Assembly: GCF_002215215.1 (NCBI RefSeq)
Contig: NZ_CP018632.1
Span: 5,018,501-5,082,500, forward strand
Direction of reading: 5' to 3'
Length of the DNA: 64,000 bases
Source of the DNA: Granulosicoccus antarcticus IMCC3135
GTDB taxonomy: Bacteria; Pseudomonadota; Gammaproteobacteria; Granulosicoccales; Granulosicoccaceae
Within the stretch, counting starts at the first letter, position 1. Each line of letters begins with the position of its first letter. A program made the position numbers and the translations under genes. This document shows positions 40,085-63,933 of the stretch, piece by piece. Under the pieces are notes generated by a model, which was given only the letters and a program-made list of their open reading frames with translations, was not told the origin of the DNA and ran no database searches.

Positions 40085-41428
40085 ATGAAAGTAACGATTT
40101 ACGGTTCGGGCTATGTAGGGCTGGTAACGGGCGCATTGATTGCGGACGTCGGCAACGAAGTACTGTGTGTGGATGTTGACGAGAAGAAAGTCGCCAACCT
40201 CAAGAAAGGCATCATTCCCATCTTCGAACCGGGCCTTGATGATGTCATCAAGCGCAATGTGGAAGCTGATCGTCTCGACTTCACCACCGATATGGATCGT
40301 GCGGTTGCTCACAGCGAAGTGCAGTTCATCGCCGTTGGCACACCTCCTGGCGAAGATGGCTCCGCTGACATGCAATATGTCGCAGCTGTTGCCAAGACGA
40401 TTGCCGATCGCATGACCGAATCAAAGGTTGTCGTGAACAAGTCGACAGTGCCTGTTGGCACCGGTGACATGGTCGAAAAAGTCATCGCAGACGGACTGGC
40501 TGCTCGCGGCCAATCCATCTCCTACGCTGTCATATCCAACCCTGAATTTCTCAAAGAAGGCGCGGCTATCGAAGATTTCATGAAGCCTGATCGCATTGTC
40601 ATCGGTACTGACAACGAACAAGCGATGGAAGTCATGCGCGAACTGTACGCACCTTTCTGCCGCAACCGTCGCGACCGTCTCATCTTCATGAGCCGCAAGT
40701 CATCTGAACTGACTAAATATGCCGCTAACTCTCTGCTGGCAACCAAAATCAGTTTCATGAACGAGCTGTCCAACATTGCTGATCGCCTCGGTGCTGACAT
40801 CGAAGATGTTCGCGTCGGTATCGGTTCTGACCCACGCATTGGCTATCACTTCATCTACCCTGGCTGCGGCTACGGCGGATCGTGCTTTCCAAAGGATGTA
40901 AAGGCGCTTATCGCCACGGCACGTGAGAATAACTACGACGCCAAGCTGCTGTCAGCCGTGGATAGCGTCAACGACAGTCAGAAGCATGTACTGTTCGAAA
41001 AGCTGATGAAGCATTTTGACAACGACATCAAAGGCAAGAAGTTTGCAGTCTGGGGATTGTCGTTCAAACCCAACACCGATGATCTGCGTGAAGCGCCCAG
41101 TCGCGTACTGATTGAATCCATCTTCGAACACGGCGGTACTGTACGTGCCTATGATCCGGTTGCCATGAAAGAGATGCGTCATTTCTACCCGGACGAGAAG
41201 CGCCTGGAACTGGTGGGTACCGCACAGGATACGGTTGATGGAACCGATGCCCTGCTGATCAATACCGAATGGCGTGAATTTCGCAGCCCGAACCTGGAAG
41301 CCCTCAAGAGCAGCCTCAAACGACCTCTGGTGATCGACGGTCGTAACCTCTATGATCCGGCTCAGATGGTTGAACATGGTTTTACCTATGACTGCATCGG
41401 TCGTCCCGGCAAGCACGCCGAAAGCTGA
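40085..41428 (+). CDS. ugd: UDP-glucose 6-dehydrogenase
   Basis: 447 residues, AGGA ribosome site 8 bp before the ATG. The NAD-binding GSGYVGLVTGALIADVG (residues 7-23), the STVPVGTGD block and GCGYGGSCFPKDVKAL with the catalytic Cys at 267 identify it. It oxidises UDP-glucose twice to UDP-glucuronate. The product is the donor needed by a PssD/PssE-type glucuronosyltransferase, and such a pair is present at 60476-61488. It is a monocistronic gene with its own terminator-like hairpin. Confidence 0.95.
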   Translation: MKVTIYGSGYVGLVTGALIADVGNEVLCVDVDEKKVANLKKGIIPIFEPGLDDVIKRNVEADRLDFTTDMDRAVAHSEVQFIAVGTPPGEDGSADMQYVAAVAKTIADRMTESKVVVNKSTVPVGTGDMVEKVIADGLAARGQSISYAVISNPEFLKEGAAIEDFMKPDRIVIGTDNEQAMEVMRELYAPFCRNRRDRLIFMSRKSSELTKYAANSLLATKISFMNELSNIADRLGADIEDVRVGIGSDPRIGYHFIYPGCGYGGSCFPKDVKALIATARENNYDAKLLSAVDSVNDSQKHVLFEKLMKHFDNDIKGKKFAVWGLSFKPNTDDLREAPSRVLIESIFEHGGTVRAYDPVAMKEMRHFYPDEKRLELVGTAQDTVDGTDALLINTEWREFRSPNLEALKSSLKRPLVIDGRNLYDPAQMVEHGFTYDCIGRPGKHAES

Positions 41429-48001: not shown

Positions 48002-49066
48002 TTAGCCTTGATCGACCAGACCCGCTTCGACGCGCTTGTGTAGCAGTCGTGGTGTCAGGAAGTGATGAGCCAGAACCAGAACAACAAATAACCAGAATGA
48101 AAACGGGATCAATACGCGATATTCATTCACCAGAATACCCACCAGTATGAAACCTACCTGGATCAGCGCCATGACCAGAACCATACCGTTCACTGAAAAA
48201 TTGGCTTCCAGCAATCGATGATGCAAATGTTCGCGATCAGCATCGAACGGAGATCGTTTTTGTGACAAACGCCTCATCATGACTGACACGGTATCGGCCA
48301 AGGGTAATCCAAATATCCAGCCCGCGCTGACCGGTGAAAGCACAGCATCTGGTCCCTGGGTTAGCACAATGAAATACCAGACCAGGAAGAATCCGAACAA
48401 CATGCTGCCCGAATCGCCCATGAAAACCTTGGCGCTCTTGCGGAAGAGTCTTGAGTTATAAAACAGGAACGCGAACAGCGCACCGACCATGGTCATCATC
48501 AATTGAAACGATGCCAGATCACCCGCTTTGTAGCAGTAGTAGGCCAGAGGGCAAACGGTAATCGTGATGATGGTGCCAGAAAGGCCGTCGACCCCGTCAA
48601 GCATGTTGATCGAATTGATAACGCCCACCACACACATGATCGTAAAAATGACAGAGACAACACCTGTCATCAGCACCGGACCGCTACCGTACAAATCGCC
48701 GACGGATTCAATACTCTGCCCACCCAGGAAAACCATGGCCAGAGCCGTGGCAATCTGCAAAGGCAAGCGCTGCCGTGCACTCATTATGTAAATATCGTCA
48801 AGCACACCCATCAGGACAAGCCCGGTTCCGAAAACGATAGGAGCCATGACACGCCATTCGATACCCAATGCCAACGAGGCCACCAGCACTGACAGGTAGA
48901 TAGCAATACCTCCCACCACAGGGACATTACCCACGTGCTGTTTGCGTTCGGTGGGTTTGTCGAGTAGACCTACCGAACCGGCGAAACGCGCTAGCACAGG
49001 CACCAATGCCAGACAAAACAAACCGCCTAACGCTACCCCGCTACCCATGTAGAGGTCGAATGTCAT
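48002..49066 (-). CDS. wecA: WecA-like undecaprenyl-phosphate glycosyl-1-phosphate transferase
   Basis: 354 residues, about 10-11 membrane segments. LMGVLDDIYIMSARQRLPLQ (DD motif), NSINMLDGVDGLSG (DxxD), KVFMGDSGSMLFGFFL and DREHLHHRLLEA near residue 280 (the HxHHRL carbohydrate-recognition site) are those of the MraY/WecA superfamily, WecA branch. It transfers a HexNAc-1-phosphate (UDP-GlcNAc in E. coli) to undecaprenyl phosphate, the first step of polymer repeat-unit assembly. It is probably the initiating enzyme for locus B and possibly A, as no other initiator is seen. Confidence 0.9.
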   Translation of the reverse strand: MTFDLYMGSGVALGGLFCLALVPVLARFAGSVGLLDKPTERKQHVGNVPVVGGIAIYLSVLVASLALGIEWRVMAPIVFGTGLVLMGVLDDIYIMSARQRLPLQIATALAMVFLGGQSIESVGDLYGSGPVLMTGVVSVIFTIMCVVGVINSINMLDGVDGLSGTIITITVCPLAYYCYKAGDLASFQLMMTMVGALFAFLFYNSRLFRKSAKVFMGDSGSMLFGFFLVWYFIVLTQGPDAVLSPVSAGWIFGLPLADTVSVMMRRLSQKRSPFDADREHLHHRLLEANFSVNGMVLVMALIQVGFILVGILVNEYRVLIPFSFWLFVVLVLAHHFLTPRLLHKRVEAGLVDQG

Positions 49067-50908: not shown

Positions 50909-53900
50909 ATGAATCGAAAGCGATTAAAAGCCCATTTCACACTGTCAGTGACAGCCCTGTTGGTTGCTGCATGTTCGGATGGATCAACGCCATCCAGCTC
51001 TGACAATAATCCGGACCTAGGGGCCGCCACGGCAGATTCGGTCATATCCGGTAGCAATGCCACTGACTCGGCCAATGCTTCCACCCCCCCCGATAACTCT
51101 TCAGCTGTACCGACCGTCAACATAGACACCGGTGCAGTCAGCTCAACAGATATCACAATCACTCCCAGCGTGTCCTCGTCCACAGGTACTTTGGTTAGCG
51201 ATCAGAATTACACAATAGGTGCTCAATCTTCATTGCCAGCACTTGAGCTACTGCAGGCAGACTTTCTGTCCATGACCAGTACTACAGGAGTTGCACACGC
51301 GGCGCTCAATCGAAACAGCACATCCACGCTGCAATTCCAGAGCGATAGCGGGCAATTAGTGTTCCAGGAAAACTCCGAAACATGGGGAACTGGCGACGGT
51401 CATAACATGAAGATGGCGGGTCTTACGGCCGGTACAGAGTATCAGTACACCTGGACGTTTACCGCCAAGGGTATGCAGCCGTTGACGATCATGGGCATGC
51501 TGATCACACCCTCTGACAACACCACGGTAGCACCGGATTCAGCATTGCCTGCACTTGAGTTGGTGGAGGCAGATTTCCTGTCAATGACAAGCACGACAGG
51601 GGTTGCGCACGCAGCCCTGAACCACAACAGCACATCAACTCTGCGACTGCAGAGCGCTAGAGGCCAAATCGTGATTCAGGAAAACTCCGAAACATGGGGC
51701 ACTGGCGACGGCCACAACATGAGGATGAAAGAGCTTACGCCTGGTACAAATTATCAATATACCTGGACGTTCACAGCCAAGGGCATGCAACCGTTGACAA
51801 TCAGAGGCGTGATGAGTACGCCTTCTGACAATAATCAGCCAGCAGCCGAGCCAGCAATGCCTGCACTTGAACTGGTGGAAGCAGATTTTCTGTCAATGAC
51901 CGGTACTACAGGGGTTGCGCACGCTGCACTCAACCATAACAGTACATCAACTCTGGCACTCATGGGTGCAGGTAGCCAAATCGTGTTTCAGGAAGAATCC
52001 GAAACATGGGGTAGTGGCGATGGTCACAACATGAAGATGACTGGCCTCACGCCAGGTGCAGAGTATCAATACACCTGGACATTCACAGCAGAAGGAAAGC
52101 AACCGTTGACAATCAGTGGTGTATTGAGCACGCTTTCTCTCGCTTCCCCCTCCTCCAACAACACTGACTCAGCACCTGAATCCGTAATAATAACGCCTGA
52201 AGAAAAAGCTGCTGAAGTGCAAGCAGCGGCAGAAGCAGCTGCTGCAAAGGCTGCTGCTGAAGCAAAAGCAAATGCTGCAGAGGCAAAAGCTGCTGCAGAA
52301 GCAAAAGCTGCTGCAGAGGCAAAAGCTGCTGCAGAGGCAAAAGCTGCTGCAGAGGCAAAAGCTGCTGCTGAAGCAAAAGCTGCAGCAGAGGCAAAGGCTG
52401 CAGCAGAGGCAAAGGCTGCTGCTGAAGCAAAGGCTGCGGCTGAAGCAAAGGCGGCTGCTGAGGCAAAAGCTGCGGCTGAAGCAGAACCTGCGCTGCCTGC
52501 ACTTGAGCTTGTTAAAGTCAACTTCCTGTCAATGACAAGTACAACAGGAATTGCCCAGGCTGTACTCAACCATGTAAGCACATCGAAGCTGGTGCTTGAT
52601 AGCGGTACGGACCAAATCGTGTTTCAGGAGGACACACAGGACTGGGGCACTGGGGATGGCCACAATATGAGGATGAAGGATCTGACCCCTGGAACAGAAT
52701 ATCAGTACACATGGACATTCACAGCCGACGGAATGCAGCCATTGACAATCAATGGCGTAATGAGCACGACCGCTGCCAAGACAAACGATAATACCCCCGA
52801 CAACTCAGCTGATAGCATCGCTGAAAACACCACCAACACCACCTCAGCCAACAGCTCAGGTAGCGCTATTGTTGTTGGAAGCGGACCCGGTGATGCAGCT
52901 TGCATAGACCTGTCAAACCATCAGATGGGATTTGGTGGAGTCAAGGATTCGCACTGGAAACAATGGGTACCAAGCTTGCGTTATTCCATTGGCGAGGAGT
53001 TTCTGGCTGTCGAGGATTCTGGTGAATTTGGCAAAGTCATGCGCCATAAATATGTACCCTCATCGATTGGAACCGGTCGCGTAGTCACAGCCAGCAGCTT
53101 GAACCATCAGCGTACTTACCGCCTGGCCCAATCGATGTACCTGGAGCCAGGCTGGGATTGGGGCGGACTTACCACCAAGGGTGGCGGTGGAAAACTGGGT
53201 TTCGGCCTAGGTGGCGGCACTACGCCTTCTGGAGGCACGGTTGACCCCAAAGGCTTTACGGCAAGACTGATGTGGCGTGGTCAGAAGGACGGCACGGCAA
53301 AAATCGGCATCTATTCCTACGCAGCTGATCGTACAAAAACTTACGGTGAAGACGTCCTTATTGAAAACTACACGGCTCCGATCGGAGAGTGGATCAACAT
53401 CATTATAGAAATTCAGACGAACTCATCAACCTCCAGTTACGACGGACGCATGAGAATCTGGCTTGATGGCGTTGAGGTGTTGGACAAGCAGAACGTTGGC
53501 TGGCAATTGGGAGGCAGCACTCCAGTGGTAGATTCCCTGTACTACTCCAGCTTCTATGGAGGCTCCAGTGCCCAATGGGGGCCCAGCAATACAACCTATG
53601 CCAAGCTGCGAGATGTCTGCTGGTCCTCGGTTGTCAATGGCTACTCTGGCATCGACCCGGACAACGGACGCTATGAAGTGCACTCAACGGTCAACCCTGG
53701 CGGCTCTTTCGGGGATGACCCCTGGGGCGACAGTGGCGCACCAGATTGGTATCTCAAGCGACAAGAGTCGGAGCAACTGGCAGAGGAAGCTCGTATACAG
53801 ATAGAGTTTCTGGCACCCGAGGCATCAGAAAGTATCGGAGTGAACTATGCGCAAACCGTCGAACAGTTGATTCTTGCATTGGATGCAATCAAATCCAACT

Positions 53901-54277
53901 CGATTATTGGCCTGGCAAACAATCCGGTTCCTGCAATCAGGCAAGCCTACGACTCCCTGGATGCCATTACCGAGCAAGACGTGAACGCAGGAGAGTGGGG
54001 CGAGATTCAACGCATCAAGGAATCCCTGAAAACCCTGAGCGGCGTATCAGCAGAAACTGCACTGGCCGTTGTTGAAATCAATCTCGATGCCGCAGACTGC
54101 GACATCGAGCCTCTCTCAGTCTTCTGCGAGAATGCCTTGTCTCACTATGAGACTGCCAAGGCAAGCAAGCAACAGATGGATAGCAGTAGCAATGACTACC
54201 ATCTGCATGCCGAGCAATCCTGGAACAGTAGTGTCGAGGCGCTCATGAGCTTGCAAGCCGATTACAGGCAGAAGTAA
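50909..54277 (+). CDS. Large lipoprotein: four repeated modules, TolA-like helix, PL14-like lyase domain
   Basis: 1122 residues from ATG 50909. The signal peptide has the lipobox LLVAAC, so Cys22 is lipidated. Residues 23-105 are Ser/Thr/Asp-rich. Three modules of about 90 residues (about 108-201, 211-308, 315-410; ALELVEADFLSMTSTTGVAH, then SETWGTGDGHNM, then YQYTWTFTAKGMQPLTI) come next. A helix of AAAEAK repeats spans about 438-526, followed by a fourth module (527-619). At about 664-906 is a domain with the PL14 pattern GKLGFGLGGG (Lys762), TAR (T784, R786), YSY (Y802, Y804) and YYSSFYGG. This matches, from memory, the K/S/R/Y/Y set of the Chlorella virus glucuronate lyase. A helical tail of about 215 residues ends it. 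Probably an outer-membrane-anchored glucuronate- or alginate-type lyase. Confidence 0.72.
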   Translation: MNRKRLKAHFTLSVTALLVAACSDGSTPSSSDNNPDLGAATADSVISGSNATDSANASTPPDNSSAVPTVNIDTGAVSSTDITITPSVSSSTGTLVSDQNYTIGAQSSLPALELLQADFLSMTSTTGVAHAALNRNSTSTLQFQSDSGQLVFQENSETWGTGDGHNMKMAGLTAGTEYQYTWTFTAKGMQPLTIMGMLITPSDNTTVAPDSALPALELVEADFLSMTSTTGVAHAALNHNSTSTLRLQSARGQIVIQENSETWGTGDGHNMRMKELTPGTNYQYTWTFTAKGMQPLTIRGVMSTPSDNNQPAAEPAMPALELVEADFLSMTGTTGVAHAALNHNSTSTLALMGAGSQIVFQEESETWGSGDGHNMKMTGLTPGAEYQYTWTFTAEGKQPLTISGVLSTLSLASPSSNNTDSAPESVIITPEEKAAEVQAAAEAAAAKAAAEAKANAAEAKAAAEAKAAAEAKAAAEAKAAAEAKAAAEAKAAAEAKAAAEAKAAAEAKAAAEAKAAAEAKAAAEAEPALPALELVKVNFLSMTSTTGIAQAVLNHVSTSKLVLDSGTDQIVFQEDTQDWGTGDGHNMRMKDLTPGTEYQYTWTFTADGMQPLTINGVMSTTAAKTNDNTPDNSADSIAENTTNTTSANSSGSAIVVGSGPGDAACIDLSNHQMGFGGVKDSHWKQWVPSLRYSIGEEFLAVEDSGEFGKVMRHKYVPSSIGTGRVVTASSLNHQRTYRLAQSMYLEPGWDWGGLTTKGGGGKLGFGLGGGTTPSGGTVDPKGFTARLMWRGQKDGTAKIGIYSYAADRTKTYGEDVLIENYTAPIGEWINIIIEIQTNSSTSSYDGRMRIWLDGVEVLDKQNVGWQLGGSTPVVDSLYYSSFYGGSSAQWGPSNTTYAKLRDVCWSSVVNGYSGIDPDNGRYEVHSTVNPGGSFGDDPWGDSGAPDWYLKRQESEQLAEEARIQIEFLAPEASESIGVNYAQTVEQLILALDAIKSNSIIGLANNPVPAIRQAYDSLDAITEQDVNAGEWGEIQRIKESLKTLSGVSAETALAVVEINLDAADCDIEPLSVFCENALSHYETAKASKQQMDSSSNDYHLHAEQSWNSSVEALMSLQADYRQK
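52221..52484 (+). repeat. Ala/Glu/Lys-rich 18-bp repeat array encoding a TolA-like helix
   Basis: The six-residue unit AAAEAK is repeated about a dozen times, coded by diverged 18-bp units such as gctgctgcagaggcaaaa. The high alanine content with alternating Glu and Lys predicts one long, rigid single helix, as in TolA domain II. DNA copies are near-identical in places, so length variation by slippage is likely. Confidence 0.9.
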
Positions 54278-54280
54278 GCT

Positions 54281-55522
54281 TTAACCTGCCTCAGCCGACA
54301 GACACACGTTCGAAAATCGGGCGTGTGTCGTGTAGTCTGGCGCCCAGGCAGCAGTGTTACCGCCGTAGAACGAGGAGTAGATCAGTTGATCTACTTCAGG
54401 AAAAACACCTGATCCCTGCCATTGAATATTGTCTTTCCACATCACGACTTCGTTATCCAGCAGTACACTCAATGAACCATCATGGCTGTTGACTGTTGAG
54501 TTGGCTGTCACTACGAGAGTGATTCGAAACCATTCGCCAACCGGGATTTGGAAATTCTCCACATTGAAAACATCCCCCCATGGCAGGTTCTGGCTCCGGT
54601 CGGCTGAATACGCATAAACACCCAATCCCGCTGTACCGTCTCCGTTACCTTGCCATATCAATCTGGCCGACAGGCCATCGTCGCGAGCATCACCGCCCGT
54701 TGGTGTTGATCCGCCCCCGAGTCCGAATCCGAATTTGCCGCTTTCACTGGTACCACCCCAATCAAATCCATCTTCAAACAAGACTGACTGGCTTAATGCG
54801 TAAGTTTGCTGCCCGGTTATATCGATTGAAGCAACCACTCGATCCGAGCCGATATTTGTAGGCTCAAACTTCTGTCTGATTGCAGACTGGTTTTCAAAGC
54901 CGGTGTCTATAGAGAGGTGTTGTGGGTTGACGATATAGCGAAGATCAGGCATCCAGTGCTGCATCATCGCCTTATTTACTTGACCAAATGGGACTGGCTC
55001 ATCCTGAATTGGCAGGCAGGCTTGATGAACATCATTTGCCGCCAGCTCGATTGTGCTCACGCTGTTATCAGTATCATCGTCAGATGCTGTGCTGTTACGT
55101 CTGACAGGTACGATGTCGTAGTCATAATTGGCCGTCTGCTCAGTCCCGACAACGACCGTGCTGCGACTGACAGATGAAGCATTGAATTTGTCATTAACAC
55201 CAATCTTGGCCGTTTCGGTACTGACCGATGAATTACCGTTGGCTTCAACAGCACGCACAACCATCGAGTGATCACCCTGCCAAAGGTCACGACTGATATA
55301 TAAAGTCTCTCGAGTAATACCCTTGTAGCTATCGTCTACGGTGATCTCATAGTAAACAGCACCAGGAACGCTGGCCCACTCCCATTTCACCGCTGATTGT
55401 GCCACCTCAGTGCCACGAAGATCTTTGGGGGCATCAATAGCATAAGCCATCGTGGTCGCAAGTCCTGATCCTGCCAGGACAAGCAACATGCAAGAACGAT
55501 TTACAACATGCTTACTTGTCAT
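54281..55522 (-). CDS. Secreted PL14-like lyase-domain protein (partner of the convergent lipoprotein)
   Basis: 413 residues. A Sec signal peptide is at 1-28 (cut after AYA). Residues 30-110 look like a fibronectin type III-like fold (DAPKDLRGTE, YYEITVDDSYKG). A polar linker (110-165) follows. The C-terminal domain (about 168-413) is homologous to that of the convergent gene: GKFGFGLGGG with Lys263, SAR with Ser285/Arg287, YAY with Tyr303/Tyr305, and YSSFYGG. The K-to-S spacing is 22 in both proteins and in the vAL-1 lyase as I recall it. The 3' ends of the two genes are 3 bp apart. No lipobox, so it is secreted or periplasmic. Catalysis is likely but untested. Confidence 0.72.
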   Translation of the reverse strand: MTSKHVVNRSCMLLVLAGSGLATTMAYAIDAPKDLRGTEVAQSAVKWEWASVPGAVYYEITVDDSYKGITRETLYISRDLWQGDHSMVVRAVEANGNSSVSTETAKIGVNDKFNASSVSRSTVVVGTEQTANYDYDIVPVRRNSTASDDDTDNSVSTIELAANDVHQACLPIQDEPVPFGQVNKAMMQHWMPDLRYIVNPQHLSIDTGFENQSAIRQKFEPTNIGSDRVVASIDITGQQTYALSQSVLFEDGFDWGGTSESGKFGFGLGGGSTPTGGDARDDGLSARLIWQGNGDGTAGLGVYAYSADRSQNLPWGDVFNVENFQIPVGEWFRITLVVTANSTVNSHDGSLSVLLDNEVVMWKDNIQWQGSGVFPEVDQLIYSSFYGGNTAAWAPDYTTHARFSNVCLSAEAG

Positions 55523-55744: not shown

Positions 55745-57028
55745 TTATTGATTGATTGGCATGCTTTTTTGTTTTCGACGTAAAGTCACGATCAGGAATA
55801 TCTCTCCCACGGCTGGCGCCATTACCACCCAGAGCGCGGATTTCAATGCAAGCCCACCAACCAGCATGACACCAAGTGTCAAAATACTGGCAACAATACC
55901 CAGAGTGAGCAGAATTCCAAATTGCAGTCGCACCACAAAATTCTGACTGACCCAGAACCGATAGTTGGACAGAGCCATGACCAGCACGGTAGCCACGAAC
56001 AAGGGTATCAACGCATCCCCTGTTTCAATCCAGCCAGCGTATCGACCTATCACCCACGCAACAGCAATGACTGCAACGTAGTAATAGACGATATTCATAC
56101 TGGTACGACAGTGGGCCGTGATTGCCTTGTCCAGCGCATCGTTGTCACCGTCCCCAAATGCTCTTCGAATCTGTGGCAAGGCACTCTTTGATAGTCCCGT
56201 GGTGACCATATTGACTGGTGTGACAATCATGCGAGCCACACTGTAGTAGCCAACCGATAGTGGACCAAACATGAACATCAACAACGGTACAACGCTCTGA
56301 TTCTGCATCCAGGTCACCAACATGCCACTGGTTGCAGGGATGCCATGTCGCCAATAGCTTCGGCATAACTCAAGAGTGTCGGCAAACGTGACTCCAGAGT
56401 TTGCTCCCTGGGCACGCAGTGCTCGATGGGCGAACAAAACGAACAGCAGATTACCGACAGCTAAAAACCAGAATGCCGATATTTCTGGCGAATGATTCAC
56501 TTCACTGACGATGATCAGCAGAAAACCCACGACACCCAGTGTCAGCGACAAACCAGAAAACCATAACGAATGCCTGTGCCGCGATTGCAGATAGTAGTAT
56601 TGCCGATACAGCTCTGCAAAGTTTAGACTGGCGCTGTACAGCACCAAGGCAACCCACAGCGCGATGGCACTACCTGTCGGTGGATGCATCCATACCAGCG
56701 CAGCGAATAACACGGCCTGGGCCACTTGCAAGCCCATCACGATTTGGCAGGTGGCCCAGAATCCGTGGATCTGCCTGACAAATGTCTCACTGGACAACTG
56801 TAGTACCATCTGCCGCGTAGCAAGGCCCATTGTCAGCATCGCCATGAACTGACAGACCACGAACCAGAAACTGTAGACCCCCAGATCAGCAACGCCTGCA
56901 ACTTTTATTATCAGTAACGAGAACAAAAAATTACTGCCACTCAAACCTGACTGCTCGAGCGCTGCATACCACTTGTTATTGCGCTTGGCAAGCTTACTGG
57001 ACAGCCATCGAAGCTGATGTGTATTCAC
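55745..57028 (-). CDS. Wzx-like polysaccharide flippase (second copy in window)
   Basis: 427 residues, about 12 membrane segments, with a short cytoplasmic N-terminus (KLAKRNNKWYAALEQSG) and a first helix FLFSLLIIKVAGVADLGVYS of the PST/Wzx type. Conserved positive and polar residues lie inside helices, as usual for lipid-linked glycan flippases. It is a distant paralogue of the flippase at 8766. It would move the locus B repeat unit across the inner membrane. It is divergent from the VanZ-like gene with 56 bp between starts. Confidence 0.82.
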   Translation of the reverse strand: MNTHQLRWLSSKLAKRNNKWYAALEQSGLSGSNFLFSLLIIKVAGVADLGVYSFWFVVCQFMAMLTMGLATRQMVLQLSSETFVRQIHGFWATCQIVMGLQVAQAVLFAALVWMHPPTGSAIALWVALVLYSASLNFAELYRQYYYLQSRHRHSLWFSGLSLTLGVVGFLLIIVSEVNHSPEISAFWFLAVGNLLFVLFAHRALRAQGANSGVTFADTLELCRSYWRHGIPATSGMLVTWMQNQSVVPLLMFMFGPLSVGYYSVARMIVTPVNMVTTGLSKSALPQIRRAFGDGDNDALDKAITAHCRTSMNIVYYYVAVIAVAWVIGRYAGWIETGDALIPLFVATVLVMALSNYRFWVSQNFVVRLQFGILLTLGIVASILTLGVMLVGGLALKSALWVVMAPAVGEIFLIVTLRRKQKSMPINQ

Positions 57029-57084: not shown

Positions 57085-58230
57085 TTGTCAGTCATTGTAA
57101 ATATCGGCGAAATGATATTCGCATTACTTAATAGGCGGATAGTCAATGTGTTGCTTGGCGGCGTCATTCTTATTGTACTGTTCGCCGGCTTGCGTCCGTA
57201 TGCCAGCTATTCAGATGAGTGGGTTTCGTTCAACAGCCAGGCAAATCAGACGGAGTTCGGGTACTACGGCCTGGCTACCGGGAAGCTGGACGATGCCGTC
57301 AGTATAGCGATCTGGCAGCAATCAATTGAAATTTCCATGACGGTGCAGTTAAGCCGCCCCCCTGACAATCGTTTCCAGGTTCTGACACAAATCGACTCCC
57401 CTGGCAGTGTCGACCCCTTGATCATAGGGCAATGGCAATCCAACCTCATCATCATGAGTGGGCGCGATTATCGCTCCGAGTTCAAATTTCCACGACTGTC
57501 TGCAGATCTATCAGCAAATTCTGCAGATCTATCAGCAAATATAGATACGGCCATCGATGTTGTTGTCATTCTTACCCCCGATATGACCTCATTGAATGTC
57601 AACCAGCAGTTGATAGCTCAAGGCCCGGCCATCCCTTTCAATCAAGCTCCTGACAGAATCAGCATTGGCAATGCTCCGGACGGCGGCCATGGATGGACAG
57701 GCAGTCTTCAACACTTTCAACTTCAAAGCACAACGCCAGGCCGAACACGTGCTCAGTATCAGTTTGACAAAGACAATTTCCCCGCCATTGCCGAGAGCGA
57801 CGATGGCACAAATAGTCTGGTCGTGCCTGAGCCGGGGCATTTCCCGGACAGGGCCTGGATCGGCGCATTGCGAATCAATGATCTATTTCATGGCAACTTA
57901 TTTGATGTCATCATCAATTTTCTGGGATTTACACCTTTTGGCTTCCTGATGTGCGCCGCACTACCCCGGCGTAATCGAAGCTATTCCGGCCTTCAGAATG
58001 TTTGCCTCACTATTCTCACCGGCTTCCTGCTAAGCCTGGCCATTGAATCCGCGCAATCATTCATACCTGGCCGCAGTCCTCATGTGCATGACCTGCTGCT
58101 GAACACTCTGGGGACAGCAGCAGGCGCCATCAGCCTGCTGATTATGCTCAAGCTCTGGCGAAGAATCAGGACTACTGCTTCTGCGGAGCATCCTCCAACC
58201 AGGAATCCAGAGAGCTCAGAAAATCCTTGA
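57085..58230 (+). CDS. VanZ-like membrane protein with an extracytoplasmic LamG-like domain
   Basis: 381 residues from TTG 57085, backed by AGGAG 9 bp upstream (an ATG exists at 57112). One N-terminal helix (VLLGGVILIVLFAGL) precedes a soluble LamG/concanavalin-like region (about 45-245; FEISM/VQLSRPPDNRF, DRISIGNAPDGGHGWTGSLQHFQL). The C-terminal VanZ part follows (DVIINFLGFTPFGFL, IESAQSFIPGRSPHVHDLLLNTLGT), with three or four helices. VanZ proteins are poorly understood, linked to cell-envelope glycan assembly and glycopeptide response. The Arg-rich HDxxxN motif is intact. Its 3' end overlaps GT61 by 59 bp. It is the only plus-strand gene among the locus B operons here. Confidence 0.78.
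   Translation: MSVIVNIGEMIFALLNRRIVNVLLGGVILIVLFAGLRPYASYSDEWVSFNSQANQTEFGYYGLATGKLDDAVSIAIWQQSIEISMTVQLSRPPDNRFQVLTQIDSPGSVDPLIIGQWQSNLIIMSGRDYRSEFKFPRLSADLSANSADLSANIDTAIDVVVILTPDMTSLNVNQQLIAQGPAIPFNQAPDRISIGNAPDGGHGWTGSLQHFQLQSTTPGRTRAQYQFDKDNFPAIAESDDGTNSLVVPEPGHFPDRAWIGALRINDLFHGNLFDVIINFLGFTPFGFLMCAALPRRNRSYSGLQNVCLTILTGFLLSLAIESAQSFIPGRSPHVHDLLLNTLGTAAGAISLLIMLKLWRRIRTTASAEHPPTRNPESSENP
57499..57540 (+). repeat. Perfect 21-bp tandem duplication in the VanZ-like gene
   Basis: tctgcagatctatcagcaaa plus t is repeated exactly twice in frame (57499-57519 and 57520-57540). It encodes SADLSAN twice within the LamG-like region. Exact identity suggests a recent slippage event. Confidence 0.9.
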
Positions 58231-59353
58231 GATCCAGGTCAAACTCTCCACCAGAGCCTTGATGCAGCCACCGCTTCTTGGAGTTATTCTTGAAGATATA
58301 CGTATGATGCTCATGACCCAATGCAGCGCTGATGGTGGCAAACATATAGCTAAGAAAATTTGAGGGATAAAGCTCAACAACCCTTGTATCCGGTGGGCTG
58401 AACATCACAGACATCATGCCGGCACCTGCCAGCCCAATGACATCGGTTGCCTGTGAGAAAAGTTCTGCCTTCTCCCGAAGACCCAGTGATGACATCTCCA
58501 CGGATTTGAAACCACGCTGCTCCAGCTCTGCGACCAGCGTATCTTCCTGACGAAATTTACGAGAGCCTGCGTCTTTGCGACTGATGTACAAGCGTTGATT
58601 CGCAGCCGCAGGCTCGCTCATGAAGGAGCCCAGTCGCGTACGATAGCCTTCGATGAGCCAGCCGGGTACCACATTGGATGAGTAGCCGCGCGGACGCGAT
58701 ACACACACCAAACGCTCGAACTCCATCGCTTCATGAAGCGACAACTCCACCATCCGATCATCGGCCACACCCAGCACCCGCAAACTCTCACGAAACGCAG
58801 ATTTGTTCGGTGGTATCAGAAACTGATCAATCTGAACTGATTCAGTTGCGCAATCCTCCAGCAATATCCATCGCCCCAGAGCGTCAGTCAGCCAGTGAGC
58901 AAAATTACCCTGAACTGTCGATAACGGGGCACACAGATTCAAGGTCGTGCCCGCTATCACTCTTGCAGGCGCTCGCTTCAATACCTCGAGCGGCTTGAGT
59001 TGATGATGCGTCGAGTAGTCTTTTTGCAGTCGGTTGTCTGCACCGAATATCGACACATGAGTAATCCCATCACTGAGGATACGGCCATTGTTCAGAATGA
59101 GTCCCTCATACTCGAAGTCGGTTTTGAGAACTGCCGGACTGACAGACTCGTCCAGCGTGTCCTGTTCCCGACCTTCAGACCAGCGTTGGTACAGCTCTGG
59201 ATTAAACGGTACGCTGGAATGGAACGCCGACAGCTCGATCTTGGTTACCTGCAGATGCTCCACGGGAACAACGGGCAGCGCCGGAAGTAACAAATCTTTT
59301 GTTCGTTCCCTGAGCGCAACACCCAGACTGACAGCATGTCGTAGACTTATCAC
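58172..59353 (-). CDS. Glycosyltransferase family 61 (DUF563)
   Basis: 393 residues from GTG 59353, whose GTGA overlaps the stop of the upstream GT4 gene; GGAGT lies 8 nt upstream. The ATG of the longer frame at 59425 would lie inside that gene. NFAHWLTDALGRWILLED near residues 146-163, YISRKDAGSRKFRQEDTL and DVIGLAGAGMMSVMFSPPDTR near 315-335 are GT61 blocks. The family includes xylosyl- and GlcNAc-transferases of plants and bacteria. It is the last gene of the minus-strand operon, and its 3' end overlaps the VanZ-like gene by 59 bp. The sugar is unknown. Confidence 0.82.
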   Translation of the reverse strand: MISLRHAVSLGVALRERTKDLLLPALPVVPVEHLQVTKIELSAFHSSVPFNPELYQRWSEGREQDTLDESVSPAVLKTDFEYEGLILNNGRILSDGITHVSIFGADNRLQKDYSTHHQLKPLEVLKRAPARVIAGTTLNLCAPLSTVQGNFAHWLTDALGRWILLEDCATESVQIDQFLIPPNKSAFRESLRVLGVADDRMVELSLHEAMEFERLVCVSRPRGYSSNVVPGWLIEGYRTRLGSFMSEPAAANQRLYISRKDAGSRKFRQEDTLVAELEQRGFKSVEMSSLGLREKAELFSQATDVIGLAGAGMMSVMFSPPDTRVVELYPSNFLSYMFATISAALGHEHHTYIFKNNSKKRWLHQGSGGEFDLDLKDFLSSLDSWLEDAPQKQ

Positions 59354-60483
59354 AGACCAAGAACTCCATCGACAATTTTTGACGCCGTATCCTGAATGGT
59401 GTATCGGTTTGCTGAACGTCGACACCCTTCTCTGAGTTGCTCTGATAGCTCAGCAGACTCCAGAAATTGCCTGAGCAGTGACGTGTAGCTCTCAACATCT
59501 CCTTTGCTATCCAGTATCAGCGCGTTGTCGCCATTTTCAAGATAGGCCACTTCGGGGCCATGATTGTCACAACGCGTGGTGATTATCGGAATGGCATAAT
59601 GAAACGAATCGATCGCCACCAGGCCTACTGCACCGGGCACAACCATGGCACTGGCACTCAACAGCAATCGGTCGCGATCTTCACCGAACACCGAACCTAC
59701 GTAGTTACACCAATCGTGTTTACTGGCAAACGATTCAACCATGGCTTGATCGGGGCCCGTACCTGCCACAACCAACTCAAGCTCAGGGTGTTCAGCCTGC
59801 AGGTTCTGCATCGACTGAAAGATCAGATCCAAACGCTTATCGTCGTACAGCCCACCGATGTAGACAAAACGAGACTTGTGCCGTTGTACTTCTGACTCCT
59901 CCAGCTTCCTGGTTACGGTCAGCGTATTGTTGACAACGACTATTCGCTCATCAGGTACTTCTTGCTCCAGCAAGGCCTGTCGGGAGATTTCCGTATAGGC
60001 GAACCACCGAGCCACTCGACGGACCATCAACTGCTTGAGCTTACGTGCCAGGCCTATCTCTCGGTGGCTTTGAAAATTCTTGCCATGACCGAAATAACAC
60101 ATCGATATCCATCCGATCTGCTGAAGTGCGAAAAGCAGATAATTATCGAGCAATTTGGAGGCATGCTCCACGATCACCACATCACCGCGCCGCACCTTGA
60201 AAGGCGAACCCTGCCAGTACAGGTAGCGCGTGAATTTACCAGGCAAGGGAATGATCAGGCTTTTCACACGATGCCCCCACTCGGGATATTCCATACGAAT
60301 CTTTGAGCCTTCATAGGCGTCTGGTGGCCCATAGATAAGGACGAACTCAATTCCCTGCTGCGCAAACTGTTCACGCAGGTTTTCGAACAGAGGCAAACGG
60401 TAGTGAGGCACGAATTTCTGAACGAAAACCACACGCTTTATCCCAGCCTGATTAGTCGCCTGTGATTTGTCAGCTTCACTCAT
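59350..60483 (-). CDS. Glycosyltransferase (GT-B, GT4-like)
   Basis: 377 residues from ATG 60483; an alternative start 20 codons upstream (60543) would lie inside the previous gene. VVFVQKFVPHYRLPLFENL near residues 16-34 starts the acceptor Rossmann domain. The second domain begins FVYIGGLYDDKRLDLIFQSM, with VVAGTGPDQ. The donor site lacks a standard EX7E: the equivalent segment reads GAVGLVAIDSFHYAIPIITT, so the first Glu is replaced. ATG 60483 overlaps the previous stop by 8 bp. A retaining or inverting mechanism cannot be decided. Confidence 0.78.
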   Translation of the reverse strand: MSEADKSQATNQAGIKRVVFVQKFVPHYRLPLFENLREQFAQQGIEFVLIYGPPDAYEGSKIRMEYPEWGHRVKSLIIPLPGKFTRYLYWQGSPFKVRRGDVVIVEHASKLLDNYLLFALQQIGWISMCYFGHGKNFQSHREIGLARKLKQLMVRRVARWFAYTEISRQALLEQEVPDERIVVVNNTLTVTRKLEESEVQRHKSRFVYIGGLYDDKRLDLIFQSMQNLQAEHPELELVVAGTGPDQAMVESFASKHDWCNYVGSVFGEDRDRLLLSASAMVVPGAVGLVAIDSFHYAIPIITTRCDNHGPEVAYLENGDNALILDSKGDVESYTSLLRQFLESAELSEQLREGCRRSANRYTIQDTASKIVDGVLGL

Positions 60484-60985
60484 TATTTCCACCACTGTTT
60501 TTCTGATCCTTACTGGACAAATCATCCAGGCCCATATGCGCACGTACCATTCTATTCAACGGTTCCTGATAGAAAAAGCGTCGTTCAGTAAATGCAACAC
60601 AGCTTTGTTTTGCCTCCTCGTAGCTCTCCAGCACCTCATTGACCTGTTCCGGATACATCGCTACGACTGCAAAAGAATTGCGTTGCAGCCACCGGGCAAT
60701 CTCGAGCTGATGTTTGTCACGCCGGAGGGTATTCGGCACAACCAATGGGACAATGCCGGCTTCAAGCAGGGAAAAAATCGACCCACCTCCCCCATGACAG
60801 ACAACCACATCGGCCTTGTCGATATGCGCCTGGATACCTGGTTCGAATCTGAACCAGCGTGCCACTGCGGGCTCATACAGGCCGTCAGCGATCTGGATCA
60901 AGGCATTTTTGGCGTATGGTCCCTTATCCACGGCTTCAACCAATGGGTCGAACGATGTTGTGCCAACGGTAACAAAAATGTTCAT
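60476..60985 (-). CDS. pssE: PssE/Alg13-like glycosyltransferase subunit (donor-binding)
   Basis: 169 residues from ATG 60985. MNIFVTVGTTSFDPLVEAVD opens the GT28 C-terminal-type domain, and VVVCHGGGGSIFSLLEAGIVPLVVP near residues 62-86 is the UDP-binding loop. Proteins of this split type (PssE with PssD, Alg13 with Alg14) form one active glycosyltransferase on the membrane. In Rhizobium the pair adds glucuronate in exopolysaccharide synthesis. It overlaps the pssD stop by 4 bp (ATGA), which fits stoichiometric translation. The acceptor and donor in this host are inferred. Confidence 0.85.
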   Translation of the reverse strand: MNIFVTVGTTSFDPLVEAVDKGPYAKNALIQIADGLYEPAVARWFRFEPGIQAHIDKADVVVCHGGGGSIFSLLEAGIVPLVVPNTLRRDKHQLEIARWLQRNSFAVVAMYPEQVNEVLESYEEAKQSCVAFTERRFFYQEPLNRMVRAHMGLDDLSSKDQKNSGGNNE

Positions 60986-61488
60986 AGCAGCCCTACCCAG
61001 GTTGCCTTGGGATAAATTTTCAGCAACTCTTTGTGCTGCACGAAGAATTGATCTGCGAACCGGTACAAAGCACGCCCACATTTGCTACGTGTCTCGAATC
61101 GAGCCCAACTCTCGAAAACAATCAACTTGCCCCCTAGAACCTTTGCCGCCAAGGCCGGAATAACGGCAAAGCCGGGGCCCGTCACGATTGCCATGCGAAT
61201 ATCGTAATGACGCGTCATACGCCAAAGCAGTCGAGCTGAACTGACGGCATATGCAAGCACATCCCTTAACTCCACGGCACGATGTTTGGGGGCACAGGTA
61301 TCCACAGACCAGCACTCGTCAAACAAGCTGCCATCAACGAGTTCAGAGTCAGTAATCAGGACACAGTGACTCGCGGCTCTTACCTCTGGATCCAGGGATA
61401 CAAGGACGCGAAGAGCTTCCTCCAAATGACCACCTTCACCAGCAATGAAGAGCAACGTAGCCGGTGAATGCGCACGACAAAATTTCAT
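60982..61488 (-). CDS. pssD: PssD/Alg14-like glycosyltransferase subunit (membrane anchor)
   Basis: 168 residues. ATLLFIAGEGGHLEEALRVL near residues 10-29, HCVLITDSE and VTGPGFAVIPALAAKVLG near 102-119 are the Alg14-family blocks. The family anchors the catalytic partner (Alg13/PssE) at the membrane and binds the lipid-linked acceptor. It starts 12 bp after the ligase stop and overlaps pssE. With ugd (UDP-glucuronate source) elsewhere in the window, a glucuronosyltransferase is the natural guess. Confidence 0.85.
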   Translation of the reverse strand: MKFCRAHSPATLLFIAGEGGHLEEALRVLVSLDPEVRAASHCVLITDSELVDGSLFDECWSVDTCAPKHRAVELRDVLAYAVSSARLLWRMTRHYDIRMAIVTGPGFAVIPALAAKVLGGKLIVFESWARFETRSKCGRALYRFADQFFVQHKELLKIYPKATWVGLL

Positions 61489-61500
61489 CTGTTTATCCGA

Positions 61501-62988
61501 CTACCAGCGTAAGCGGCGAGCAGAGGGCCGTACCTGCTGGCTGCGCACACTGGTGGGCTTGGACCGCTTGCGCGGCTTGACCGTCATCACGGCAACTGCC
61601 ATGAAACTGATGAAGTAGATCTGCCAGATGGCCGTATTACTTCTGAACAAGGAATACTCAGTCATGTTTTGAACAGACACAGCCGCAATCGCCACTAACA
61701 ATGGAAATGCATTAGTGACTCTCGATGAGAGTGATAGATAACGCAAGAAATATGCACCATAGCTGAATATTATAGCTGCCCCGAAAAACACCCCTCCCGA
61801 TACCAGACTGTCCATATAGCCATTGTGATAGTGGTTGTAAGGCACACCAAATGCTGGTGCTTCCATAACGGTCTGGTGGTTATCGTAACCCCATCCGAGT
61901 ATCGGGCGTTGCATGAACGCATCCCACGCCACCCCCCATAAGTCGGTTCGACCGGTCAGTGTCATGTCCTTGCCTACAGCACCTGTCGCAGCCTCGGCGT
62001 AGTCATCAGCGCTCTGCTGAATAACCAGCACCAGCAACACGATAAAGACCAGCGTTGTACCACCAAGAATGATGGCGGCTCGGCCTTTCTTGCCAAGCGA
62101 CCCATAAAACCGGTGACCAATCATCATCAAAGCCAGGGAAGAGATGATCGATAGCGTAGTCGCACTACCCGTACTCCATGCGTTGAACATGACGACACCC
62201 AGAACAAGCATCAGCCACATCATTTTTCTGGTTTTGAATCGCGTCTGGGACATTAATCCAAATGTGGCCCAGGCGGCCGCAATACAGACACCACCCAGTG
62301 AGTTAGGGTTCCCAGCAAGACCGCTGTAACGTTGACCGTCGAGGATAGCTGCGATGGTGCCGTTCTCATGTGCGAAAAACAACAGAAAGCCTCCTCCCAG
62401 GGTCAGCATCAAGGGCGCAATAGTGATAATGCAGGCACTGTAGACAACATTGCGTTGCCGACGTTCATCACTGAAATACAACCAGGTAGCAAAAATACCC
62501 AGACTCAAATGAATCACGTTGATGATGACCCTGTCGGGGTAGTCACTGGCGACTGCGGTTAACAGCAGCACAAATATCAGGAATAAAAGCGTTCTTTCAC
62601 GTTTGAAGAAGGCGATCATGTCCCTCATTCGAAACATCATCAGAAAAAACGTCAATAGATAGCTGAGTGCCTGAAGCTTCTGTTTAAACAATTCTGCAGA
62701 CAATTCCGCACCGTCATCTGTGGCAGTATCTGGCACCCAAAACACGGTGTAGCTATTGATATCAGTCAAGCCTTGAATAACGGCCAGAAAAAACACCGAG
62801 CCCAGAAACATATAGCTGAACAGTGGCAGAGCCGTCAGCGTCGGCCAATGAGAGATGGCTTCAAGTCTGCGCCATGTGCGAGAGAAGAATCCGAAACTCA
62901 AAAATCTTGTGTACCAGGAACTCGAACGCTTCTTGCGACGACGCTGCCTGGAATCACCACTACCCTCTGAAGACTGCACGCCAGCCAT
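61501..62988 (-). CDS. O-antigen ligase / Wzy-like polymerase family membrane protein
   Basis: 495 residues, about 10-12 membrane segments after a basic cytoplasmic N-terminus (QRRRKKRSSSW). The periplasmic loop has GRTDLWGVAWDAFMQRPILG and WGYDNHQ, then NHYHNGYMDSLVSGGVFFG, matching Wzy_C (R-P-x-x-G-x-G and the H-N motif). A basic tail (PRKRSKPTSVRSQQVRPSARRL) ends it. Start and previous stop touch (TAAATG). It is the second ligase/polymerase in the window, the locus B counterpart of the one at 12812. Confidence 0.82.
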   Translation of the reverse strand: MAGVQSSEGSGDSRQRRRKKRSSSWYTRFLSFGFFSRTWRRLEAISHWPTLTALPLFSYMFLGSVFFLAVIQGLTDINSYTVFWVPDTATDDGAELSAELFKQKLQALSYLLTFFLMMFRMRDMIAFFKRERTLLFLIFVLLLTAVASDYPDRVIINVIHLSLGIFATWLYFSDERRQRNVVYSACIITIAPLMLTLGGGFLLFFAHENGTIAAILDGQRYSGLAGNPNSLGGVCIAAAWATFGLMSQTRFKTRKMMWLMLVLGVVMFNAWSTGSATTLSIISSLALMMIGHRFYGSLGKKGRAAIILGGTTLVFIVLLVLVIQQSADDYAEAATGAVGKDMTLTGRTDLWGVAWDAFMQRPILGWGYDNHQTVMEAPAFGVPYNHYHNGYMDSLVSGGVFFGAAIIFSYGAYFLRYLSLSSRVTNAFPLLVAIAAVSVQNMTEYSLFRSNTAIWQIYFISFMAVAVMTVKPRKRSKPTSVRSQQVRPSARRLRW

Positions 62989-63918
62989 TTATCCGTACAA
63001 CCTCTTGGATGGACGTATCAGCTTACCTAGATTGGTAAACCCTTTCTTGAGCCAGTAAGCAGCCATACCGCCACTCACGGGTAGAGCCAGCACCCCCAAT
63101 ACCAGACCCACTGGCGCTTGCACCAGAGCCTTTAGATTGAATACCAGTCGCTGGGATAATTCTGCCTCGCGCAGCACGACCCGTTTGAAATTCTGGCCTT
63201 GGGTCATACAACGAAAGATCATGTATCGGGAGCTGGTTCTCGACGCGGGTATGGTCTCGTGCACGATGGCATCCTCACGCCAGACGACGTGCAAACCACG
63301 CTCTGCCAATTGATCAAAAAAGAGACTATCGCTGCCGCCCGACAAACCAAACTCTGGATCAAAGCGCTGTGAACCGATTTGTTGCAGATCGAGCAAGCAA
63401 TTGCCAGTGGCAACATGGCGCACCTTATCACCTGTCTTCAAGCTTCCTTTGTTGTGAAGGTCCAGCAAAGCGACCCAGGCAGAAGTGCCCTGCGGGTAAA
63501 CCGGCTCAATGGGACCTGCGACCACGGCACTGCCAGACACCTGCTGCTGGGCATACAGTGCGCTGATCCATTCAGGCTTCGGAAACTCATCGTCATCGAC
63601 AAAGACAAGCCATCGCGTCTGCGTGTTTTCCAGAATCAGGTTGCGCCCGATTGATATGTTGTTTTCTGGCGAGTCGACTATTACGACCTCACACACATCA
63701 TTTATTGACGAATCATCCACAATCTGTTGCACTATCGGACGAGACTGCAACCCCGAGTTGTTGACGACCAGTAATGTGCATTGCCCACTTTCAAGATCCG
63801 CCGCCTGAAAATGATTCATCGCGATTTTCAAGTGCACTAGCAGATTGCCAAACAGCGTGGAACGGTCGTGTGTAATCACGCCCACGGTAAGCCCTGGCTG
63901 TTTCTCAGGAGTGTTCAT
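62989..63918 (-). CDS. Glycosyltransferase family 2
   Basis: 309 residues from ATG 63918 (GGAG ribosome site 9 bp upstream; a GTG start at 63933 is possible). LTVGVITHDR near residues 10-19, LLVVNNSG and the DxD-like LVFVDDDEFPKPEWI near 108-122 assign it to GT2, GT-A fold. A membrane helix near the C-terminus (VLGVLALPVSGGMAAYWL) may hold it at the inner face. Probably an inverting transferase acting early in repeat-unit assembly. It is the first complete gene of the six-gene minus-strand operon. Confidence 0.85.
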   Translation of the reverse strand: MNTPEKQPGLTVGVITHDRSTLFGNLLVHLKIAMNHFQAADLESGQCTLLVVNNSGLQSRPIVQQIVDDSSINDVCEVVIVDSPENNISIGRNLILENTQTRWLVFVDDDEFPKPEWISALYAQQQVSGSAVVAGPIEPVYPQGTSAWVALLDLHNKGSLKTGDKVRHVATGNCLLDLQQIGSQRFDPEFGLSGGSDSLFFDQLAERGLHVVWREDAIVHETIPASRTSSRYMIFRCMTQGQNFKRVVLREAELSQRLVFNLKALVQAPVGLVLGVLALPVSGGMAAYWLKKGFTNLGKLIRPSKRLYG

Positions 63919-63933
63919 CTTGTCTTTCTCCAC

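Follow-up and report, generated by a model that had tools for sequence, protein, structure and literature searches.

Putative self-directed polysaccharide lyases in a Wzx/Wzy locus of Granulosicoccus antarcticus IMCC3135

What would polysaccharide lyases be doing inside a locus that appears to build a polysaccharide? The question is raised by a stretch of 64,000 nucleotides of Granulosicoccus antarcticus IMCC3135 (contig NZ_CP018632.1, positions 5,018,501 to 5,082,500 of the forward strand; hereafter the window, from whose first letter our plain coordinates are counted), in which two convergent genes encode related proteins, lyase A and lyase B, and a third paralogue, lyase C (318 residues, G000:C1:5082709-5083665), starts 209 bp beyond the window end. 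The reading that we favor, at a probability of about 0.6, is that the three are cassette-encoded, self-directed depolymerases, which would cut the uronate polymer of their own locus and move together with its genes. Throughout, G000 denotes this genome and C1 its contig, other G numbers the genomes of relatives, and L numbers the fetched DNA stretches; open frames begin at the first possible start codon, and N-termini are provisional. The two genes and their lyase domains are as follows:

50909 to 54277, + strand: lyase A, a putative stalked lipoprotein lyase of 1122 residues, with the lipobox VAAC (Cys22) and a PF21294 match of 62.9 bits
54281 to 55522, − strand: lyase B, 413 residues, with a signal peptide without lipobox and a PF21294 match of 77.1 bits
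52883 to 53638, + strand: lyase domain of A (aligned stretch; PF21294; PL36/PL14 type)
54281 to 55042, − strand: lyase domain of B (AlphaFold, Foldseek and VIA-align)

The lyase domain and its relatives

The predicted lyase fold and active site of the domain common to A and B are well supported by modeling and alignment. The two domains are 39% identical across 262 aligned positions (E 1e-58) and both exceed the cut-off of 27 bits for the Pfam family PF21294 (Polysacc_lyase_14), which confirms the homologous domain proposed in the preliminary description, an account made from the letters of this stretch alone. The convergent arrangement described there, with 3 bp between the genes, agrees with the coordinates and with the stop codons at 54275-54277 and 54281-54283. 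Both genes of the proposed pair of lyases are real, but the set has three members, with lyase C lying outside the window; A, B and C are the only PF21294 matches genome-wide (E 0.01), all three within this locus. The tail-to-tail layout was rejected as a functional unit, being found in only two of the eight genomes with both long (A-like) and short (B- and C-like) forms: G017 is the second, its gap being 22 bp, and the six others lack it.

For an AlphaFold model of the lyase domain of B (mean predicted local distance difference test score, pLDDT, 93.7), VIA-align returned the polysaccharide lyase family 36 (PL36) enzyme Aly36B (PDB 6kcw) at Z 28.3 (232 aligned, 21% identity) and the PL14 enzymes AkAly30 (5gmt; Z 25.2, 233 residues) and vAL-1 (3a0n; Z 23.2-23.5, 220 residues), with the next entry, a glucuronan lyase, well under these three at Z 15.4. 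A profile built from 26 lyase domains of this clade (alignment A2) scored 80.9 bits against Aly36B, 44.2 against AkAly30 and 25.6 against vAL-1 among solved structures, and Aly36B ranked first by profile search, Foldseek and VIA alike. The overlay on PL14 lyases that had been proposed as a check thus leaves the predicted fold standing, as it matches vAL-1 and AkAly30 in addition to Aly36B, and the structure gives no ground for refutation. Membership of PL14 specifically is not supported, however, since the nearest characterized relative by both sequence and structure is Aly36B, which the consulted part of a review assigns to PL36 (PMC8618178). With this enzyme ahead of the PL14 ones, the label "PL14" is too narrow, and filing the genes under it was ruled out. 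Nor does the Pfam name settle the CAZy family, because PF21294 also matches the PL36 fragment of Aly36B, at 70.9 bits. The tree, which was made without the truncated row L105, unites the 26 domains in a starred clade (95/90); Aly36B is the reference closest to it, though weakly supported as such (80/72), on a long branch and with a single PL36 fragment; the PL14 references branch elsewhere, and deep branches are weak.

The pattern K-x21-[S/T]-x-R with Y-x-Y, to which the preliminary description had drawn attention, is indeed present, with the Lys, the Arg and both Tyr residues invariant in 26/26 aligned domains, the Ser/Thr of S/T-x-R also retained in these, and the whole aligning with vAL-1; the vAL-1 residue numbering is that offered in the description. 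Among more distant homologues, Lys, Arg and both Tyr are kept in 19 of 22, the misses being L065, L094 and L100. The active site of Aly36B consists of Lys143, Arg169, Tyr185 and Tyr187, by the portion of its report consulted (PMC8286568), and the mutant structures 6kcv (K143A/Y185A) and 6kzk (K143A/M171A) map these four residues onto the invariant K, R, Y and Y.

The polysaccharide locus and its comparison between species

The placement of the lyases within a polysaccharide locus, as first described, is borne out, A, B and C all lying in a Wzx/Wzy locus, of which the window holds:

40085 to 41428, + strand: nucleotide-sugar dehydrogenase of the UDP-glucose dehydrogenase type, in the conserved flank
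48002 to 49066, − strand: WecA-like initiating sugar-phosphate transferase (PF00953; the NCBIfam WecA model is under its cut-off)
55745 to 57028, − strand: Wzx-like flippase that precedes B on the same strand (read from the sequence; no Pfam or NCBIfam match)
57085 to 58230, + strand: VanZ-like protein (PF04892)
58172 to 61488, − strand: glycosyltransferases (GT), namely GT61, group 1, GT28 C-terminal (Alg13-like) and Alg14-like
61501 to 62988, − strand: Wzy-like polymerase/ligase (PF04932)
62989 to 63933, − strand: glycosyltransferase family 2, GT2 (PF00535)

The locus also has a Wzz/kinase (Wzc) protein, a Poly_export (Wza) protein and an outer-membrane barrel, and lyase C sits between GT2 and Wzc.

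Across the nine genomes compared, rpoB identity to this genome is highest in G012, G019 and G024 (94-95%), and in G017 it is much lower (86%). We compared the locus with 80 kb each of G012 and G017, "no match" meaning none at E 1e-8. Against G012, one flank is collinear (RNase D 82%, Ugd 93%, MATE 75%, methyltransferase 88%), as is the other (Wzc 84%, Wza 84%, barrel 58%), whereas the center has diverged (Wzx 27%, GT2 36%, Wzy 31%, GT4 43%, lyase A 45%) and Alg13/14 has no match in the G012 stretch. Against the distant G017, by contrast, Wzx is 57%, GT4 77%, GT2 70%, Alg13/14 68% and lyase A 58% identical, with Wzc and Wza at 56-58%. As the flanks and exporter are kept relative to G012 while the central genes are nearer to G017, the cassette has been replaced at a fixed site, lyase A having moved with it; the cassettes of this genome and G017 are, on these identities, related and not identical. 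The tree places A in a starred set (97/95) with the long forms of G017, G018, G022 and two metagenome-assembled genomes (MAGs), and B and C in another (99/99) that also takes in the G017 and G022 short forms, those of G012, G019 and G024 lying outside it. Long-lyase identity correlates with that of Wzy (Spearman 0.79) and Wzx (0.59) and hardly with that of rpoB (0.04), and short-lyase identity with that of Wzx (0.62), all of these values being descriptive, as pairs are not independent, one short gene was taken per genome (C here), and G008 and G023 have no rpoB match. Together, these sequence relationships suggest that the lyases are matched to the polymer of their cassette.

PF21294 was found in 14 of the 57 genomes searched and in 0/14 named control genomes. 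Eight of the 11 Granulosicoccus genomes with the clade hold long and short forms, G023 having the long form only and G008 and G026 the short form only. With this genome's own proteins as queries, which is a cleaner test than marker profiles built partly from clade loci, Wzx or Wzy was found near a clade lyase in nine of the 10 Granulosicoccus relatives, the match in G008 being weak (34 bits); in the remaining one, G026, the lyase has GT2 matches around it and a Wza about 23 kb distant. In 8/11 genomes, a clade lyase has a Wza on its contig no more than about 24 kb away. Among 114 proteins of 190 to 1000 residues within 6 kb of clade lyases (L040 excluded), the top Pfam families were GT2 (11), Wzy_C (9) and bacterial sugar transferase (7), and no UDP-glucose dehydrogenase appeared, in each case among the 25 of 84 families listed.

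With regard to the polymer itself, likely routes to UDP-glucuronic acid (UDP-GlcA), UDP-N-acetylmannosaminuronic acid (UDP-ManNAcA) and GDP-mannose (GDP-Man) are encoded in the region (Ugd-type, WecB, WecC and GMP/PMI matches). As none of these is singled out, the glucuronate-type substrate put forward in the preliminary description is not supported. In another species, some 330 bp separate a short-form lyase from a match to the UDP-glucose dehydrogenase query (L057:18275-20000), a hint of a uronate-containing polymer there.

Outside the genus, long forms occur in MAGs labelled Leucothrix (L040), Robiginitomaculum (L050) and Acidimicrobiia (L045), and a short form in an Acidimicrobiales MAG (L049); these four sequences may be misbinned. 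A VanZ-like gene adjoins the lyase in L040 and L050, the latter also being near a Wzy-like gene. The class survey gave matches in 9/369 genomes and the phylum survey in 7/398, this genome counted in each, with scores of 39.8 to 88.4 bits beyond the genus, and a scan of viral contigs one distant relative, L087, at 24% identity. Other PF21294 genes, in 21 stretches searched with the marker profiles, have Wza and Wzc nearby in L096 only and Wzx/Wzy in none, with GT61 in L102 and dehydrogenase or GT markers in L093, L095, L097 and L098; for these genes the neighbor sample comprised 128 of 132 proteins within 5 kb, three of L105 and one of L095 being left out.

Several of these distant genes stand in polymer loci of their own. 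One (L096:1715-10262) has Wza, Wzc, a flippase-type protein and a polysaccharide pyruvyl transferase as neighbors, and another lies with a nucleotide-sugar dehydrogenase, GT2, a PilZ-HlyD (Alg44-like) protein, PF05426 (AlgL-like) and Sel1 repeats (AlgK-like; L097:5583-15810), which we read from its gene content as a synthase operon for a polymer, with lyases of two families. L095:5615-15323 and L098:5712-15495 resemble L097 by gene order and family tallies, with one more gene (of L095) scanned singly, and are probably also synthase-type operons with an AlgL-like gene. The PF21294 genes in L096 and L097, and probably L095 and L098, suggest that the superfamily has been recruited to such loci more than once. 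A second PF21294 group within the genus, of about 450 residues (L102:9234-10622, L103:7975-9333, L104:6456-7796), is not in Wzx/Wzy loci by the markers used, with a GT61 gene near L102.

A few further genes of the region deserve mention. Beyond Wza and the barrel, outside the window, lie a heparinase II/III-like protein (L007:11112-12830, + strand) and a two-domain zinc-dehydrogenase/GFO-IDH-MocA oxidoreductase (L007:8835-10982, − strand), neither of which has a match in the G012 and G017 stretches read. At L007:14172-16909, an acyltransferase-like gene is split into two halves around a transposase-like gene on the opposite strand, both labels being read from the sequence, in what looks like an insertion into a polymer-modification gene. 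Within the window, at 11230-12822 (+ strand), a protein resembles a pectate-lyase-type beta-helix by eye, with no Pfam match at E 0.001 and none in the G012 or G017 stretches, which may not extend that far.

Architecture of the long and short forms

The preliminary description had A lipidated and B with a plain signal, and the sequences are in line with this: the Cys22 of VAAC in A is followed by Ser, so that the +2 residue is not Asp, as in a predicted bacterial lipoprotein, and B has no lipobox. Outside the lyase domains, the two proteins contain:

51233 to 52135, + strand: three fibronectin type III (FN3)-like modules of A, of about 92 residues (starts 51233, 51545, 51857; PF16656)
52244 to 52491, + strand: Ala/Glu/Lys-rich repeat of A, an 18-bp tandem unit in 13.6 copies
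52493 to 52768, + strand: fourth FN3-like module of A, after the helix
53612 to 54274, + strand: C-terminal helical domain of A as modeled (pLDDT 86.1; first ~35 residues of low confidence)
55100 to 55522, − strand: signal peptide and N-terminal domain of B, also in a GH16-type protein of the same genome

The four repeats reported earlier for A are confirmed, the last starting at 52493, and relative to the first, copies 2, 3 and 4 are 80%, 76% and 66% identical. Contrary to the earlier view, the module has at least a partial assignment: it matches PF16656, the purple acid phosphatase N-terminal domain, an FN3-like family, at 53.4 bits (cut-off 30); its score against fn3 PF00041 is 23.7 bits, under the cut-off of 25. 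The Ala/Glu/Lys repeat is probably a long single helix, to judge from its sequence, and scores 26.2 bits against the TolA model TIGR02794 (cut-off 59.45). The C-terminal domain is matched best in structure by pectin methylesterase inhibitors (VIA Z 12.1, 107 aligned), at a Z that helical bundles reach by chance, and Foldseek gave no match at E 0.001 or better.

A lipobox is found in 10 of the 11 long forms with an intact start (L045 is without one, and L040 is truncated). In these ten, the region preceding the lyase domain ranges from 120 to 982 residues, and stalk make-up varies between FN3-like modules, Pro/Glu or Pro/Asp repeats and an Ala-rich helix, with an Asp/Thr repeat in the truncated L040. 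All 12 long forms have 185 to 217 residues after the lyase domain; their two main tail groups align by HHalign (probability 87%, E 4e-6, in a single comparison), and tail matches in the 57 genomes comprise nine strong ones, all at long lyases, and three weak ones (E 2e-6 to 3e-5) elsewhere. By model and alignment, a C-terminal helical region is common to all long forms, though their stalks differ widely.

Among the short forms, the N-terminal 146-147 residues of B, signal included, are 69% identical to part of a GH16-type protein (G000:C1:6071829-6073565; L008:8330-10066, − strand), which holds a second copy of this domain (51%) and whose top NCBIfam match is an endo-1,3-1,4-beta-glycanase model, below that model's cut-off. 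Over 394 bp, the two genes agree at 78% of DNA positions, as suggests a fairly recent copying of the shared domain. This domain of B has no Pfam match up to E 1, and a further search gave fibronectin at E 0.12 only; the FN3-like character given to it in the preliminary description is not confirmed by these searches. Lyase C begins with basic residues and includes a hydrophobic segment that could serve as a signal peptide or as an anchor.

The polymer target and its alternatives

In the model that we infer, the Wzx/Wzy locus would make a uronate-containing exopolysaccharide (EPS) or capsule, which A, B and C, as members of the PL36/PL14 superfamily, would cut by beta-elimination, with Lys as base and acid and Tyr aiding proton transfer, on the model proposed for Aly36B. 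Lyase A would be exported, lipidated and sorted to the outer membrane, and its modules and Ala-rich helix would keep the putatively surface-exposed lyase off the membrane, so that it trims or releases chains near the export site. With its plain signal peptide, B would act at least in the periplasm, and perhaps also in the matrix. The lyases would travel between species with polymer-specific genes, each cassette bearing lyases with a specificity suited to its polymer, in the service of polymer release, chain-length control or dispersal. Locus placement, co-inheritance and separation from PL7/PF05426 genes together favor the polymer of the cassette itself as the target; in this genome, the PL7 and PF05426 matches are far from the locus (C1:4188351, C1:6854213), and G017, G018 and G022 have locus lyases and no PL7 or PF05426 match at E 1e-5, G017 being 88% complete.

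The last observations bear directly on a dietary role, in which the lyases would attack the alginate of kelp, where related bacteria live, and their position in a polysaccharide locus would be incidental. The three solved relatives are listed as alginate lyases in the review as far as consulted (vAL-1 under EC 4.2.2.14, Aly36B and AkAly30 under 4.2.2.3; PMC8618178), and alginate lyase genes are noted in Granulosicoccaceae in the consulted part of a kelp MAG study (PMC9238374). We nevertheless consider such a role quite unlikely, given the Wzx/Wzy setting in nine of the ten relatives with the clade, the predominance of GT2, Wzy_C and sugar transferase among the families listed near its lyases, the separate PL7/PF05426 matches, and the three genomes that have locus lyases and neither family. 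Polymer trimming could also take place on the inner side of the outer membrane, with A facing inward and its helix reaching toward a Wzc-Wza conduit to cut stray chains. In this respect, AlgL cuts stray alginate chains in the periplasm and TolA spans that compartment; the helix of A is TolA-like at the score given above, C adjoins Wzc, and the L097 gene stands between Alg44-like and AlgL-like genes, with L095 and L098 alike. Stalks of 120-982 residues and of unrelated make-up would, however, be hard to fit into one periplasm, and we regard an inward-facing A as unlikely. Very improbable, in our estimate, is a lectin-like or structural protein that binds and anchors the polymer by the lyase fold without cutting it: Cip1 has this same fold with no convincing lyase activity, according to the portion of its description consulted (PMC3764139), and a lipid anchor plus stalk would suit a polymer tether, yet the catalytic residues are kept in all 26 clade members, long and short alike.

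Some observations weigh against self-directed lyases that move with their cassette. GT61 (37% to G012, 36% to G017) and WecA (45% and 46%) show no greater similarity to G017 than to G012, and for Wzy, which is 31% identical to that of G012, there is no match in the G017 stretches. Lyases B (48% to G012, 44% to G017) and C (47% and 51%) track the cassette less clearly than A, and short-lyase identity correlates with rpoB as well (0.48). Linkage alone could account for co-transfer, so that cognate specificity goes a step beyond these data. The clade is patchy, in 11 of 27 Granulosicoccus genomes (this one included), and hence accessory. No locus markers were found in L045 and L049, from Actinomycetota-labelled MAGs, or in the contig-edge L067, only VanZ in L040 (3 kb), and only GT61 and a DRL-type oxidoreductase in L060 (8 kb). 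Finally, a lipobox is present in three short forms (L058, L060, L061), so that a short lyase need not be a free one.

A more far-reaching version of self-directed cutting is one that we find doubtful: each such cassette in the genus would carry a cognate kit, a lipid-anchored stalked lyase plus at least one shorter lyase, swapped at one fixed chromosomal site along with the genes for the polymer, and the stalk, of unrelated sequence from species to species, would set the cutting distance and hence the thickness of the surface glycan layer.

Among known systems, Aly36B has the same fold, the same Lys/Arg/Tyr/Tyr site and the best sequence score, at about 20% identity. We are aware of neither a stalk nor a lipid anchor in this enzyme, nor of its gene lying in a polysaccharide locus, though we made no search. 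It differs in coming from Chitinophaga and in being active on alginate, as far as the consulted part of its report goes (PMC8286568). The PL14 enzymes share the fold, the catalytic pattern, and the Pfam family or score range, but vAL-1 is from a Chlorella virus and AkAly30 from a sea hare, and both are farther in sequence (25.6 and 44.2 bits). AlgL (PL5) is, as here, a lyase in a polymer-making operon, with a different fold and with synthase-dependent alginate rather than a Wzx/Wzy polymer. RbmB of Vibrio cholerae is alike in function: it is secreted and, as a lyase, breaks down Vibrio polysaccharide (VPS), the biofilm polymer made by its own species, and it is described as one soluble enzyme in the part of the account consulted (PMC11637428). 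WceF of Pantoea stewartii is similarly encoded in an EPS synthesis cluster and active on that EPS, but is a hydrolase with a tailspike-like beta-helix, its abstract mentioning neither a lipid tether nor a paralogue set (PMC7949094). Encoded in a polymer synthesis locus themselves, A, B and C would be EPS-locus depolymerases of the functional kind of RbmB and WceF, which is an analogy and not a family. In the open-access literature, we found no report of such lyases in Wzx/Wzy loci, which is not proof of absence.

Self-directed depolymerases shape biofilm release and capsule length, and RbmB and WceF are, in the portions of their reports consulted, described as single soluble enzymes. If our reading is true, and tethered and untethered lyases travel as a set with their cassette, this would offer a general rule by which to find the enzyme that matches an unknown polysaccharide of marine origin, and the varying stalk lengths would allow the distance of cutting to be put to the test. 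As Granulosicoccus occurs on kelp, the polymer may matter for attachment there.

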